A stretch of DNA of 64,000 bases from Halorientalis regularis (lineage in GTDB: Archaea; Halobacteriota; Halobacteria; Halobacteriales; Haloarculaceae), in NCBI RefSeq assembly GCF_023698535.1, contig NZ_JALJCL010000012.1, forward strand, positions 1-64,000, in the 5' to 3' direction. How positions within the stretch are numbered: the stretch's first letter is position 1; the number at the start of each line of letters is the position of its first letter. Of the stretch, positions 8,802-37,593 are shown piece by piece. The notes beneath the pieces are model-generated. The model ran no database searches. It had not been told where the DNA came from and saw only the letters and a list, made by a program, of their open reading frames with translations. The position numbers were made by a program, and so were the translations under genes.

Positions 8802-8869
8802 TCCCAAATCGCTCTCGCCAGCTTGGGGCTCTGTCGGTGAACTGAGTCAGCTGGTCGCTGGTGAACCAT

Positions 8870-9670
8870 ATGCCACAGACAGAATCATCTCCCCAAGACC
8901 TGGACGCGGTTTACACCGAGCCAGAACACGATCCGGAGACGCCCCACATCGCACAACTGAACCTCAGCCATCCGAAAAACTATCTCGGCGTCCCACTCGC
9001 AGTGTGTGCCGACGGAGCAACAACTCGGCACATCACCGACTCGCTCGTTCAGACAGTCGGCTACGCCCGGCTCGGTGCCGAGGAATTGGGCCTGATCACT
9101 CGCGAATTCGAGGTCGGATCTGTCGGTCAGCAGGTCGTCGTCATCGCGACGGGCGAATTCGAGACGCCAACGGCGGCTCTCAGCGCCCTCAAAGACCTCA
9201 AAGGATCCCACGCCCGTCTCGCAAAGAAAGCGCCGTTCTGGGCCCATCTCGGACAGCGTGTCTATCGGCACTACCTACCCGCCGACTCGATTCTCACTGC
9301 TCTCGCAGACTGTGGCGCCATCGGCATCTCAAACGCAGTCACGCTTCCCGATCTCGTCACCCATCTCGCCGAACAGGATATCTCTCTCGCCAGTTCGATC
9401 TGTCTCCAGGACGGCTGGGAGCTCTCCCAGCAGGATCAGAAGCCGGCAGTCATTCACTCGCCCGACGGTCGCGAATATCCGCTCACGAGCAGTAGCAGTA
9501 ACGGCTACAGTGGCCAGTTCCAGCATCTGAAGTCGCATCTCTACCACGTCGGGTTCGTCACCGACCCCGGCGTCGATACCGCAACACTGGATCCCACGAC
9601 CGACCGATGGGCGCTCACCAAAGCAGGGCGGGCAGTAACAAGTTCTGGAGGTGATGCCGATGCGGAGTGA
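8870..9670 (+). CDS. Hypothetical protein coupled to the TGT-like gene
   Basis: A 266-residue protein. The first 150 residues are a mixed alpha/beta region with LGLITREFEVGSVGQQVVVIATGEF split by helices. The C-terminal half looks like a winged-helix domain (HLKSHLYHVGFV, then a wing with DRWALTKAGRAV). It overlaps the TGT-like gene by 11 bases, and that gene's ribosome-binding site lies inside this reading frame. The two are therefore almost certainly made together, and this protein is the natural candidate for a partner or DNA-targeting subunit. The function is not known from the sequence. Confidence 0.65.
   Translation: MPQTESSPQDLDAVYTEPEHDPETPHIAQLNLSHPKNYLGVPLAVCADGATTRHITDSLVQTVGYARLGAEELGLITREFEVGSVGQQVVVIATGEFETPTAALSALKDLKGSHARLAKKAPFWAHLGQRVYRHYLPADSILTALADCGAIGISNAVTLPDLVTHLAEQDISLASSICLQDGWELSQQDQKPAVIHSPDGREYPLTSSSSNGYSGQFQHLKSHLYHVGFVTDPGVDTATLDPTTDRWALTKAGRAVTSSGGDADAE
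9647..9654 (+). promoter_or_regulatory. Strong Shine-Dalgarno site setting the TGT-like start
   Basis: GGAGGTGA is a full match to the 16S 3' end, 5 nt before the ATG at 9660. It argues for 9660 over the GTG at 9651 or the ATG at 9654, which fall inside the site. Strong sites like this are typical of internal operon genes in haloarchaea. Confidence 0.65.
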
Positions 9671-10607
9671 GCAAAGCTACATCAACGAGATCATCGGCTC
9701 ATCCTACGTCGACGTCTACGCCGCTTCCTACATCCCTCGATATCGGTATCCGAATCGGCTGATGCACGCAGGCAAAGCCCACAATGATATGCGGGCAATG
9801 TGTACGCGACTGATCATCGACTCCGCCTACGAAGACGAGGACATGACCAACGAAGACGTACTCGAATCTGCTCTCAAGCAGTCTGCTGACATTGTCATCC
9901 CGAAAGATTATCCCGGCGAGCCTGAACGGACTCGCGAGTCGCTCGTCGACTTCCTCAACCGCTACCAGGACATCGACGGCCGCCGGCCCGAGATCATGCC
10001 CGTCCTCCAGCCACCCTACGTCGAACACTACGAAGCCCACGAGTCCTTCTACCAGCAATTCAGCCGGCTCGCCATCGGTGGGCTCCAGTCACTCAACGAC
10101 CCGGAGAAACAGGTCCGTCGGATCAGAGCGATCAGCGATGCCGTCAGTGACCATACCTATCTCCATGCCTTCGGTGTCGGGACTTCGCTCACGATGATCC
10201 GGGCGATTCGGAACGAGCCGAACCTCATCGACAGTTTCGACACCAAGACAGCCGAGTTCGCGATCGTCAACAAGCAGATTCCCGACAAGGAATGGAAACA
10301 GCGCCAGCTGACGCTGCCCTCTGGTACCGACATCTCAACGGTCAACGGCCAGTTCGCCAAGAGTGTCCTGTTGATGGCGAACTATATGCTCACCGACCGC
10401 GTCGACGATCCCTGCCTGGAAGAGACCTATCACACTCAAACGAATCTCGATACAGTGCAAGACATGATCAACGACATTCCAGCCAAACAGCGACAGCATC
10501 GGTCTCAGCTGACAGTGGACAGAAACCAAGCTGGTCAGTCACAAACGTCTACCACGGCTGACCACCCTGATGACAGTACCACTCAGTCTGGGATTCAGAG
10601 TTATTGA
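9660..10607 (+). CDS. TGT-superfamily transglycosylase, DpdA-like
   Basis: The 315-residue protein carries the landmarks of the tRNA-guanine transglycosylase barrel in order: LIIDSAYED with Asp54 (the TGT general-acid position, normally in DSGG), ADIVIPKDY near 76-84, AIGGL at about 138-142, HAFGVG at 169-174, and DSFDTKT with Asp191 and Asp194 (TGT nucleophile region, normally DMFD). It lacks the canonical DSGGFQ and the zinc-cysteine cluster, and it has no PUA domain. So it is not an ordinary archaeosine or queuosine enzyme. It resembles the DpdA branch, which puts 7-deazaguanine bases into DNA. The Gln/Ser/Thr-rich C-terminus (about 275-315) looks disordered. Substrate specificity is inference. 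Confidence 0.7.
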   Translation: MRSEQSYINEIIGSSYVDVYAASYIPRYRYPNRLMHAGKAHNDMRAMCTRLIIDSAYEDEDMTNEDVLESALKQSADIVIPKDYPGEPERTRESLVDFLNRYQDIDGRRPEIMPVLQPPYVEHYEAHESFYQQFSRLAIGGLQSLNDPEKQVRRIRAISDAVSDHTYLHAFGVGTSLTMIRAIRNEPNLIDSFDTKTAEFAIVNKQIPDKEWKQRQLTLPSGTDISTVNGQFAKSVLLMANYMLTDRVDDPCLEETYHTQTNLDTVQDMINDIPAKQRQHRSQLTVDRNQAGQSQTSTTADHPDDSTTQSGIQSY

Positions 10608-11633: not shown

Positions 11634-13016
11634 ATGGCGCTCAATCCGGAAAATGCAGTTCGAGAGCCGCCGGTCTACAGGCGAAACAGCGGCGCTGCAT
11701 ACCACGGTGACAGCCGCATACTTCTCCAAGACATTCCAGAGGACAGCGTCGACGCGGTCGTCACGTCACCGCCATTCGGACTCGCGGATCCCCTCGAATA
11801 CGGGAATCCAACCGCAGACGACTACCTCGATTGGTTCTATCCCTTCGCCGTTGAATTGACACGGGTGGTGAAACCGACTGGCAATATTCTCATCGAAGTC
11901 GGTGGCGGCTGGAAACCGGAAAAAGCGGTCCGAACCTCCTACCAGCACACACTCCCCGCTGTCTTCTGCGGGTCTGAGAGTTTCTCCGTAAGCCCTCTCT
12001 CCGCCCACCAGTCCGATGGTACTGAGGGAGGATACTCACCACCCGAGACAACTGACACGGTGTCTCCGCCCCAGCGGGCCCGCCACGTCGGTAGGCTGAC
12101 CTGGTACAACCCTGGTACCGACCCAAACGATTCGCAGGAGTACGCGAAAAACCGGAAAACGCGCGTTCGGTGCATGGCTAATCCGATCCACTGGTTCACA
12201 CCTCTCGGTGGCGACGATGAAGCCCACCCGCCGCTAAAAGCCCCCATCCAGGGCTCGTTCAACATCGATGTCGACGACACAGCGTGGGGGTTGTCGAACC
12301 AATCTGCCGATACGGTCCCCGACACTGTCCATCCGAGCGACTTCGAGATTCCTGGGAACTTCGTCGCCCAACCGTCCGATCTGCAGACACACCCCTCGAA
12401 TCGCGACCTGCCGCCACTGCCACAGCTGGCGACACTCCGCTCACCGTCGATCTCGAAGACCGCTTTTACCGATGCGAAGCAGACGGTAGACCAGTTCGTT
12501 CGTGCAAAACTCGGCCTTCGCGATGCCCGGCCAGACCCAGATCGTCTCCCAGAACCAGCCGCGCTCGGCATTGAGCCTTCGGAACTCCGAAAGCATCTCT
12601 CGAAGTTCTGCGATCCCTCGCCGCTCGCTGGGGGCGCTCTGTTGTCCTACTACCGGTTCATCGAGATCATGCTGGACAGGGAGCCAGCCGCACTCTCCAT
12701 CTCGAACACGGCATCGAATACGAAATACCTCCAGATGTGTCGCGAGGCGGGCCGTGACTGGCATCCGGCGCGCTTCCCCCGCAAGCTGGTCGAGTACCTC
12801 GTCCCACGCGTCTCCAACCCCGGCGACGTCATCCTCGATCCCTTTGCTGGGTCGAACGTCGTCGGCGCGGTCGCCGCTGAACACAATCGGGAGTGGATCG
12901 CCATCGACACCAACCGCGACTATCTCGAAACGTCCGAATTCCGGTTCCAGTCCCGCGAGACCGTTACCAGCACCGACGACCAGCAGGAGACGCTCAGTGC
13001 GTTTTCCGGAGATTGA
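11634..13016 (+). CDS. DNA methyltransferase, N4-cytosine type, beta order
   Basis: A 460-residue S-adenosylmethionine-dependent DNA methyltransferase. The catalytic motif IV is TSPPFG (44-49), the S/T-SPP form typical of N4-cytosine enzymes, preceded by HGDSRILLQDIPEDSVDAVV. The AdoMet-binding motif I is DPFAGSN (402-408), close to the C-terminus and followed by AIDTN, so the motif order is IV then I (beta class). About 350 residues lie between the two, longer than usual and containing a Pro/Ser-rich stretch (about 115-290) that may be the recognition domain. N6-adenine specificity cannot be fully excluded. A nuclease-like gene lies 1.6 kb downstream on the same strand. Confidence 0.85.
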   Translation: MALNPENAVREPPVYRRNSGAAYHGDSRILLQDIPEDSVDAVVTSPPFGLADPLEYGNPTADDYLDWFYPFAVELTRVVKPTGNILIEVGGGWKPEKAVRTSYQHTLPAVFCGSESFSVSPLSAHQSDGTEGGYSPPETTDTVSPPQRARHVGRLTWYNPGTDPNDSQEYAKNRKTRVRCMANPIHWFTPLGGDDEAHPPLKAPIQGSFNIDVDDTAWGLSNQSADTVPDTVHPSDFEIPGNFVAQPSDLQTHPSNRDLPPLPQLATLRSPSISKTAFTDAKQTVDQFVRAKLGLRDARPDPDRLPEPAALGIEPSELRKHLSKFCDPSPLAGGALLSYYRFIEIMLDREPAALSISNTASNTKYLQMCREAGRDWHPARFPRKLVEYLVPRVSNPGDVILDPFAGSNVVGAVAAEHNREWIAIDTNRDYLETSEFRFQSRETVTSTDDQQETLSAFSGD

Positions 13017-13483: not shown

Positions 13484-13843
13484 ATGTCAGAGAATCCATA
13501 CCCAAATCGACCAGATCCTCTCGCGGCGGTCGAGCGAGAACGGATCGTCCGCGATATCGCCTGTTGGAAGCACGAACTGGAACGCGACACATCGTCGGAA
13601 TTCACGGACCAAGACCTCATCGAGTTCTGCGAGGAACTCCTGAGCCTGTCGGATACCGAACTCTACCATCGGTGGGACAATACCGTCGGCGAGTGGGTCC
13701 TATCCCGCGGTGATGTCGAGCGCCCGCAGACCGTCGACGACGAAACATTCCTCGAGTACCAGCTCGGTCTGCTTCTCAACGGCGAGCAGACAAAATACGG
13801 GTTTCTCAACACCGTTTCAATCCCCCCAGAAGCTCGGGGTTGA
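13484..13843 (+). CDS. Small helical hypothetical protein
   Basis: A 119-residue acidic, mostly helical protein (RERIVRDIACWKHELERD, then DQDLIEFCEELLSL) starting 7 nt after the previous stop. It has no recognisable motif. It is likely the third gene of the methyltransferase transcript. Confidence 0.55.
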   Translation: MSENPYPNRPDPLAAVERERIVRDIACWKHELERDTSSEFTDQDLIEFCEELLSLSDTELYHRWDNTVGEWVLSRGDVERPQTVDDETFLEYQLGLLLNGEQTKYGFLNTVSIPPEARG

Positions 13844-13894
13844 CGCCAAGACTACCGGTCGATACGTGTTGGGTATTCGCGACTATAATGAATC

Positions 13895-14476
13895 ATGGAT
13901 ACTCCATACACAGACCTCACGCTGCCGTTTGTGGAGAAAGGCGACGTAGTCCGGCTCAAGCGACCGTACTGGCCAGATACGTCGTCCCTTCACCGGAGCG
14001 TCAACAAGGCCCTCTCACGGCTTCTGATCAACCACCCCGAGATCGAGACCCGTGACGCTGAGAAGCCGGAAGAGGTGAGTCTCGTGCTCTGTCGGCAAGA
14101 CGAGCGTGCCCACGAAATCCTCAATTTCACGCACGCTACAGTCGTCGAGATCCTCGATCGGTACTCTGGCGGTGAGTTGAACTGGCGAGCAATCGATCGG
14201 TTCCAAGCCGCCAGTGGGACCAACGACAGAGCAGGACGACCCGTCCAAAACGTCGCACTCCAGTTGCACAATCCGAGTACTGGACTCGTCTACTACGACC
14301 GTGGAGCCGGAACGCGAGGAATCCCCTCCTACGTGGATTTCCACACCGCTCAGTTGTCGCTCATCCAGAAGCACGATCGCTCCTACGAGCAGAGAACAAC
14401 AGATATCGGGAATCTGCACCGATCGTTCGGGATCACTGAGGCGGAGCATCACGACCCCCACTTCGACGCCGAGTAG
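13895..14476 (+). CDS. Hypothetical protein
   Basis: A 193-residue protein of mixed alpha/beta type starting at the ATG at 13895. It opens with a strand and a basic loop (VEKGDVVRLKRPYWPDTSS) and has ALQLHNPSTGLVYYDRGAG in the middle, then a His-rich acidic end (EAEHHDPHFDAE). The family is not recognised. It lies between the methyltransferase group and the nuclease-like gene. Confidence 0.55.
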   Translation: MDTPYTDLTLPFVEKGDVVRLKRPYWPDTSSLHRSVNKALSRLLINHPEIETRDAEKPEEVSLVLCRQDERAHEILNFTHATVVEILDRYSGGELNWRAIDRFQAASGTNDRAGRPVQNVALQLHNPSTGLVYYDRGAGTRGIPSYVDFHTAQLSLIQKHDRSYEQRTTDIGNLHRSFGITEAEHHDPHFDAE

Positions 14477-14553: not shown

Positions 14554-14576
14554 AACAGGTGAGTAACTATTGGGTA

Positions 14577-15293
14577 ATGCCAACTGATGACTCTGCAGAT
14601 TTGAGTAACTGGATAGATTCTCCGGAGCTTGAAGGCGAGAGTGAAACTTATCGTGTCCTTTCGCAATGGATTGAACGTCACACGGATGCGTCCGTGTACT
14701 GGAATTCGTCAAACGATTTAGGATACGATGTATTTCGAACAAGTGATGATCGGATTCCAGATCTGCTCACTGTAGATGAGTACAACATTGTCTACGAAGT
14801 GAAGAACGCCGATGGGACAGCAACAGAAGACGGAGGAAGCGACCACGCTAATGATGGTGTACTGCAACTAATCGAGTATTGGTCCGACTACGTGGAAGGA
14901 AACGTGAAATATCTAATTGATGGAAAATCAATCGAAATCGACAGGTTTGTTCTTGCCACGAATATGGCTCCCTTCGGGCGTCTATATATGGCTGAAGGGA
15001 ATAGCGATGTACTCCGGACTGGAGATGGTGATGGCCGACAAAAGGCAGTCCAGCACAATCAGGTTCCGAACAACGAATTCAACGCCACAGAGAGGGCGAT
15101 TAGACTGATGTGGCGATTTGCTGAACACAAACAGGCAGACACTGACGTTGGGATTGGTGCACTGCTATCCACTCGACTTGACGAAGATAATCCTGACCCT
15201 ACTGCAACCCCTAGATCGCCCGTTGCAGATTTTGAACCACGCGTTCTCTACAAGCAGTTCAAGCCATATGATCAGTCCTGGTCGCATTTGTAA
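14577..15293 (+). CDS. PD-(D/E)XK nuclease-like protein
   Basis: A 238-residue protein with the nuclease signature Pro61-Asp62 (RIPDLLTVDEYN), then a strand ending Glu74-Val75-Lys76 (IVYEVKNADG). This is the PD...ExK active site of restriction-endonuclease-fold enzymes. The N-terminal helix (RVLSQWIERHTDASVYW) may carry the accessory acidic residue. The gene has its own promoter and is visibly AT-richer than its neighbours, which suggests recent acquisition. With the methyltransferase upstream it could form a restriction-modification pair, but other functions are possible for this fold. I see no DNA-recognition domain. Confidence 0.65.
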   Translation: MPTDDSADLSNWIDSPELEGESETYRVLSQWIERHTDASVYWNSSNDLGYDVFRTSDDRIPDLLTVDEYNIVYEVKNADGTATEDGGSDHANDGVLQLIEYWSDYVEGNVKYLIDGKSIEIDRFVLATNMAPFGRLYMAEGNSDVLRTGDGDGRQKAVQHNQVPNNEFNATERAIRLMWRFAEHKQADTDVGIGALLSTRLDEDNPDPTATPRSPVADFEPRVLYKQFKPYDQSWSHL

Positions 15294-36793: not shown

Positions 36794-37239
36794 TGGATCA
36801 AGAAACGAAAGTTGGGTTGGTGCCGCAGCGTGTCATAGAAGTCTTCACACGGTACAGTCAGCCTCATTACCTTTTTAGAGAGTTACAGTCGTAGAAGAGC
36901 GTGCACTAGGTGCACGGCGCTTAGAATTGTTCAAAGATAGGCATTTTATTTCCGTATAGTGACTGTTCTTTCTCGGTTGGCGTGATTTAGCTTAGCGACC
37001 GTACTACCCATGTAGCCGCAGACAGCAGGCTCGGAGCTGGTGACGCTGAATCCGTCGAAAGCCATGAGAACAGTTCTATGACACCCTCTTGGTGCCGGTC
37101 AACGACCGAAGTCGAAGGCAACGATTCGCCCTCGTCGATACATGACGAAGGCTTCCATATCGCCGTCGCCAGTCGAAACATAACAAAAAAGACACGAAGG
37201 ACCGGATGAATTTGGGAGTGTGACCGGGTGAGATAGGCG
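36794..37239. other. Stretch without a recognisable gene
   Basis: 446 bases between the UreH-like and HiPIP genes. A minus-strand frame (37187-36987) reads MFRLATAIWKPSSCIDEGES onward but has no family and could be a remnant. GTGCAC-TAG-GTGCAC (36901-36915) is a small palindrome that might end the upstream transcript. Nothing else is seen. Confidence 0.35.
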
Positions 37240-37593
37240 TTATTCGGTGTGTCTCGCGTAGATAGTACACCAAGCGTTCGGCTCGATGTAACCTTCGACG
37301 AGGCTACAGGCACCGAGGCCGTCGTCATTCTTATCGCGGATATAGTGGACACAGTTCTCGCAGATGGCAGCCCCCTGTGCATCGTGGTAGTTGACACCTG
37401 CTTTCGACTGGAGGTTTCCCACGGAGCGCTCAGTCCCACCCTGGGCAGTCGCTGTTTGGTACTCATCAGGAACCGGTCCCTGAAGATCCTCGTACTGAGG
37501 ATCGTCACTGGCGCAGCCTGCCAGTCCAACAAGCGACATTCCACTAAGCACGTGTAAGAGTCTGCGTCGTGTAGGGGTCAAGGATTCGTCCAT
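37240..37593 (-). CDS. High-potential iron-sulfur protein, Tat lipoprotein
   Basis: A 117-residue protein with a Tat/lipobox signal (RRRLLHVLSGMSLVGLAGC). The mature part has the HiPIP cysteine pattern Cys-x2-Cys-x14-Cys-x12-Cys (CENCVHYIRDKNDD..., CSLVEGYIEPNAWC), with Tyr and Gly near the cluster. HiPIPs carry a 4Fe-4S cluster at high potential and pass electrons outside the membrane, for example to terminal oxidases. A lipoprotein form fits the low-water, high-salt cell surface. It lies within the redox/copper block. Confidence 0.85.
   Translation of the reverse strand: MDESLTPTRRRLLHVLSGMSLVGLAGCASDDPQYEDLQGPVPDEYQTATAQGGTERSVGNLQSKAGVNYHDAQGAAICENCVHYIRDKNDDGLGACSLVEGYIEPNAWCTIYARHTE

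Follow-up and report, generated by a model that had tools for sequence, protein, structure and literature searches.

The locus studied here raises the question of what a TGT-like enzyme does when its gene overlaps that of a protein without recognisable family. The window, i.e. the whole stretch of 64,000 nucleotides analysed, is part of contig C3 (130,516 bp) in a 4.03-Mb haloarchaeal genome. Our preferred reading, to which we assign a probability of about 0.5, is that both genes form a two-gene DNA guanine base-exchange unit in which the partner acts as DNA-recognition subunit. An earlier note, made on this DNA from its letters, had described two ORFs, the upstream one of 266 residues, with an 11-base overlap, and this gene layout is borne out: the partner gene spans positions 8870..9670 of the forward strand (266 aa from the ATG at 8870, the ORF being open from a GTG at 8861), the gene of the putative DpdA-like enzyme with TGT fold spans 9660..10607 on the same strand (315 aa from the ATG at 9660), and the partner's stop and the enzyme's start share the 11 bases 9660..9670 of this strand, as read from the sequence. 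The closest relative found via this locus is Halorientalis persicus. Since both ORFs are kept there, with dN/dS values of 0.095 for the enzyme gene and 0.28 for the partner gene in this comparison, they are under purifying selection and behave as functional genes and not as chance ORFs.

The enzyme carries TGT motifs in TGT order, i.e. D54-S55 within DSAYED, AIGGL, HAFGVG and DSFD (numbered from the ATG at 9660), and is devoid of DSGGFQ, of a CxC..C zinc site and of a PUA domain, judged from the sequence and from a Pfam search yielding no PUA match, all of which agrees with the earlier description. Alone it matches Pfam TGT with an E value of 0.0025, staying under the curated cut-off, and a relative reaches 4.4e-7. 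An AlphaFold2 model built from a thin alignment of 11 sequences (pLDDT 77, pTM 0.74, most of the barrel at about 90) confidently predicts a TGT fold, with Z. mobilis TGT in the presence of preQ0 (2pwv) as its top match (Z 18.4, 243 residues, 3.5 A; VIA). Matches to orotidine decarboxylase were read as generic TIM-barrel similarity. Among viral models, Foldseek returned mycobacteriophage 'queuine tRNA-ribosyltransferases' and a Vibrio phage nt-1 protein. The residues D55, A72, D84, G141, H170 and D195 (numbered from position 9657) are invariant in 40/40 homologues and G142 is nearly so; based on motif order and established TGT biochemistry rather than on an active-site overlay, they appear to correspond, in order, to the regions of the TGT acid/base Asp, the base-binding Asp, the GG loop, HxxG and the nucleophile Asp. 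The Pfam E values, the modelled fold, the invariant residues and the dN/dS values together argue for a TGT relation that is more than chance.

Comparing profiles with hhalign, the scores of which vary with profile depth, we obtained 97.4% and an E value of 1.5e-11 for the enzyme versus four DpdA-type sequences including CAjan DpdA, and 87.4% and 3.7e-6 versus archaeal ArcTGT, the two comparison profiles being of unequal depth. Phage CAjan requires its DpdA to have its DNA modified, according to a study that also names an H. vallismortis 'DpdA' (EMA11768; PMC6884629). The PDB entry 7ui4, a 'DNA-guanine transglycosylase', matches the enzyme weakly in sequence (E 0.046). The enzyme is not placed in the Pfam DpdA family, because the model PF23859 gives no match at E<=1. 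An identity as canonical ArcTGT or QTRT was ruled out by the profile E values together with the absent zinc site and PUA domain. The earlier suggestion of a DpdA-like enzyme instead of a tRNA TGT is upheld by a profile lying nearer to phage DpdA and by the agreeing viral-model matches, and the enzyme belongs to a distinct haloarchaeal branch, which most likely acts in a DpdA-like way.

This haloarchaeal and haloviral TGT-like branch was found in 26 of 391 haloarchaeal species, sampled evenly out of the larger group as for all our genome tallies, where it occurs sporadically on plasmids and viruses, and it includes HRTV-29 gp33, annotated as DpdA. A gene for a DUF6884 protein adjoins the TGT-like gene in 14 of 40 members, some of them close kin, and an IMG/VR viral contig encodes DUF6884 and the TGT-like domain in one protein of 417 aa (L101:5458-6711, forward strand). 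Outside annotated records, neighbours were assigned from our own ORF and profile searches. DUF6884 has been reported to occur in DpdC (PMC11888242), whose action comes after that of DpdA (PMC12839542). We regard this adjacency and fusion as the best evidence that the branch would act on DNA. The whole genome studied here holds no DUF6884 gene (PF21818, DpdC-type). In H. persicus, PF23859 DpdA genes (L031:587-1918 and L032:3783-5021, both reverse strand) lie within about 4-8 kb of both pairs and on the same strand. Because of the DpdA-side profile, the HRTV-29 branch and the DUF6884 neighbours and fusion, a role of the enzyme in DNA 7-deazaguanine exchange is likely, and the substrate is probably DNA.

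The window contains no preQ0/archaeosine genes, though these are present elsewhere in the genome, which encodes QueC (E 2e-70), ArcTGT and an ArcS-like protein. Given these three genes, preQ0 is probably made by the host, and the supply of the base by the host preQ0/archaeosine pathway, as proposed before, is feasible; preQ0 itself is a reasonably probable incoming base. Two other genomes (G060 and G067) have a TGT-like gene and weak QueC matches, so that preQ0 would need salvage or other synthesis there.

The stand-alone partner was found in eight copies, and 8/8 overlap a TGT-like gene with the partner directly upstream, the overlaps comprising 1, 4 or 11 bases at likely ATG or GTG starts. 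The eight paired TGT-like proteins group as a single clade (support 90/95), and 91% of the bootstrap trees give them one origin, even though their identities are mostly 27-45%, one close pair aside. Partner and enzyme divergence are correlated (r 0.61, permutation p 0.019, close pair left out), and none of the eight enzymes has an adjacent DUF6884 gene. For these reasons we take the pairing to be old and maintained, and comparison of gene neighbours thus identifies the two genes as a conserved pair. Downstream of one pair, a gene of the PAPS-reductase family is located (L099:7348-8658, forward strand; PF01507 E 3e-14).

The partner itself has no match in Pfam, PHROGs, NCBIfam, PADLOC or phage records. 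It aligns with the C-terminal ~230 aa of proteins of ~415 aa sharing the signature HPKNYLG.PLA, scoring 1.6e-87 against an HMM of this HPKNY module, the family seed of which includes the partner, and the homology was independently recovered by tblastn (E 5e-19 to 1e-12). The module was detected in 253 of 391 haloarchaeal genomes; among the matches listed, open frames shorter than 300 aa are the TGT pairs and one truncated long gene, the latter being a short copy in G213 that was rejected as stand-alone partner. In the N-terminal ~180 aa of the ~415-aa homologues we found an invariant GxPDLxGV...EAKG, a pattern typical of PD-(D/E)XK nucleases, and the N-terminal half matches VRR_NUC weakly (E 0.11). 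Motif and match suggest a PD-(D/E)XK-like N-terminus; a PDB sequence search returned no match. The long proteins are near-core (e.g. L029:5594-6964, reverse strand), and scans of viral contigs detected none of this family. A link between queC and the long chromosomal gene was considered, the two lying ~5-11 kb apart in the genome studied here, G002, G005 and G022; it is absent in G010, G020, G029, G030, G031, G038 and G078 and was read as local synteny. A third module copy in the genome studied here is preceded by a DpnI_C winged helix (E 4.3e-14) and ends beside a transposase-like gene.

The structural model of the partner, built from a thin alignment of 4 sequences, is poor, and Foldseek gave no match with it at E<=0.001. 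Its C-terminal half weakly resembles winged helices, among them TubR (Z 7.3) and the BpuJI recognition domain (Z 4.7; with 151 residues the longest listed alignment). The winged-helix-like C-terminus proposed in the earlier note is hinted at by the TubR similarity, as far as a model of low confidence (pLDDT 55) allows. A PDB profile match to 7on6 covering 19 residues was judged to be chance. Since the module occurs together with nuclease-type as well as DNA-recognition-type domains, we slightly favour the partner being a DNA-recognition module common to the nuclease-like protein. The idea of a targeting subunit, put forward in the earlier note, gains indirect support from these domain associations.

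Further downstream, the window encodes an N6/N4 DNA methyltransferase of 460 aa (11634..13016, forward strand; PF01555 E 5.7e-25) and two small proteins of 119 and 193 aa (13484..14476, forward strand), the genes of which keep their synteny to the pair in H. persicus (72% and 83% identity, tblastn). H. persicus likewise has a methyltransferase homologue after the pair, with its frame split and the pair intact. There, the gene consists of two ORFs with an inserted peptide (L097:7117-8788, forward strand) similar to a peptide encoded at 36987-37544 of the window, perhaps representing the same small mobile element. In Salinibaculum KK48 the pair is plasmid-borne and followed by one adenine and three cytosine DNA methyltransferase genes. 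These neighbours fit a DNA-modification island, their link to the pair being only suggestive; methyltransferases are common on such mobile elements. A 239-aa protein encoded at 14574-15293 (forward strand) of the window shows a PD-(D/E)XK-like motif (IPDLLTVDEYNIVYEVKNAD), has no Pfam match and is absent from the H. persicus locus.

These observations are consistent with a model according to which the TGT-fold protein would take guanine out of DNA and put a 7-deazaguanine in, most likely preQ0 originating from the host archaeosine pathway, with the Asp of the DSFD motif serving as nucleophile and D54 as acid/base as in the TGT mechanism, while the upstream partner as recognition subunit would steer the enzyme to certain sequences or structures in DNA. 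There is about an even chance that the pair's benefit lies in protection from restriction. Against the base-exchange unit we count the missing PF23859 match, the lack of a DpdB/DpdC-type gene with the pair, the low-confidence partner fold, the assignment of the long homologues to PD-(D/E)XK from a motif and a weak VRR_NUC match, and the weak QueC matches in some enzyme-bearing genomes. A more specific version, which we put forward as a speculation that is unlikely to be correct, sees the pair as a site-matched anti-restriction device: mobile DNA would carry the recognition module of the near-core chromosomal PD-(D/E)XK nuclease coupled to a DNA guanine transglycosylase, writing 7-deazaguanine at the nuclease's sites. 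If true, one specificity domain would serve both modifier and nuclease, as though a restriction-modification system had been divided between the chromosome and a mobile element.

Base exchange in DNA would also take place if the partner, instead of recognising DNA, substituted for DUF6884/DpdC in processing the inserted base, or activated the enzyme in the manner of bacterial DpdB. The mutual exclusivity of partner and DUF6884 as enzyme neighbours across 40 loci is what one expects of substitutes, but it may reflect ancestry, given that only a single clade shows the pairing. Proteins related to the partner are nuclease-like or contain a wHTH rather than being base-processing enzymes, and the partner alignment has no standout catalytic motif; we regard this explanation as rather unlikely. 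Improbable, too, is an action on tRNA or other RNA with the partner as RNA-binding subunit, comparable to QTRT2 or the PUA domain, the RNA-binding parts for tRNA TGTs. The fold common to tRNA enzymes and TGT as the best Pfam name would be compatible with such a substrate, but the enzyme profile is nearer to phage DpdA, the host already has ArcTGT, the occurrence is sporadic with plasmids and viruses as carriers, the family adjoins or is fused to the DpdC-associated DUF6884 and the partner module is common to nuclease-like proteins. We hold it for very improbable that we are dealing with a TGT paralogue that is non-catalytic or assisting and works together with a further DpdA of the same element: the PF23859 DpdA genes near both H. 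persicus pair loci (within ~4-8 kb) would suit this role, but the catalytic Asp positions are invariant in 40/40 homologues and the genome studied here has no PF23859 match, although that control search gave no match anywhere.

Returning to the base-exchange unit with a recognising partner, the data suggest that what is new is this partner, being consistently paired with a DpdA-like enzyme and akin to a module of a nuclease-like protein. To our knowledge, no DpdA enzyme with an identified sequence-recognition subunit has been described. The pairing touches the question of what makes certain 7-deazaguanine modifications dense and others sparse, opens site-directed 7-deazaguanine modification to direct testing in Haloferax volcanii and draws attention to the near-core haloarchaeal nuclease-like family.

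Compared to known systems, the enzyme has the TGT fold and the catalytic motif order in common with ArcTGT, from which it differs by the weaker profile match, by having neither zinc cluster nor PUA and by the presence of a separate ArcTGT in the genome. Phage DpdA of the CAjan type (PF23859) resembles it in TGT fold family, size (~300 aa) and the order of the DS, GG, HxFG and DS motifs; the DSGxFS motif of phage DpdA is replaced by DSAYED and an HMMER-level PF23859 match is absent. We know of no phage DpdA with a partner subunit of the HPKNY kind. With the bacterial Dpd system (DpdA-K) the locus shares a DpdA-like enzyme in an accessory DNA-modification context, while a DpdC-type gene is absent from the genome, and the scanned genes of the window showed no recognisable DpdB or DpdD-K. 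HRTV-29 gp33 'DpdA' (genus Dpdavirus), for which we know of no experimental test, and its IMG/VR relatives belong to the same TGT-like branch as the enzyme; gp33 is ~27% identical to the enzyme, and its companion is DUF6884 (gp32) where the enzyme has the partner. HRTV-29 is without own preQ0 genes, and host supply was proposed (PMC8651126). In BREX-related capture (BRC) systems a TGT homologue was proposed to modify DNA within a defence locus (PMC12839542), and the pair differs from these by the absence of PglZ, DUF6079, HerA and DUF4007 genes. A second TGT homologue of the genome studied here (346 aa, DSGGY motif) stands in a row with genes of 274, 158 and 1325 aa (row at 3788-10092 of L077, reverse strand; L077 being contig C18:9000-24145), a BRC-like arrangement (PMC12839542) with weak Pfam support for the neighbours. 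In the loci examined, no TGT-like gene is found beside the long ~415-aa genes. The PD-(D/E)XK-like HPKNY proteins encoded by these genes have a C-terminal module homologous to the partner and differ from it by an extra, putatively nuclease-like N-terminal domain.
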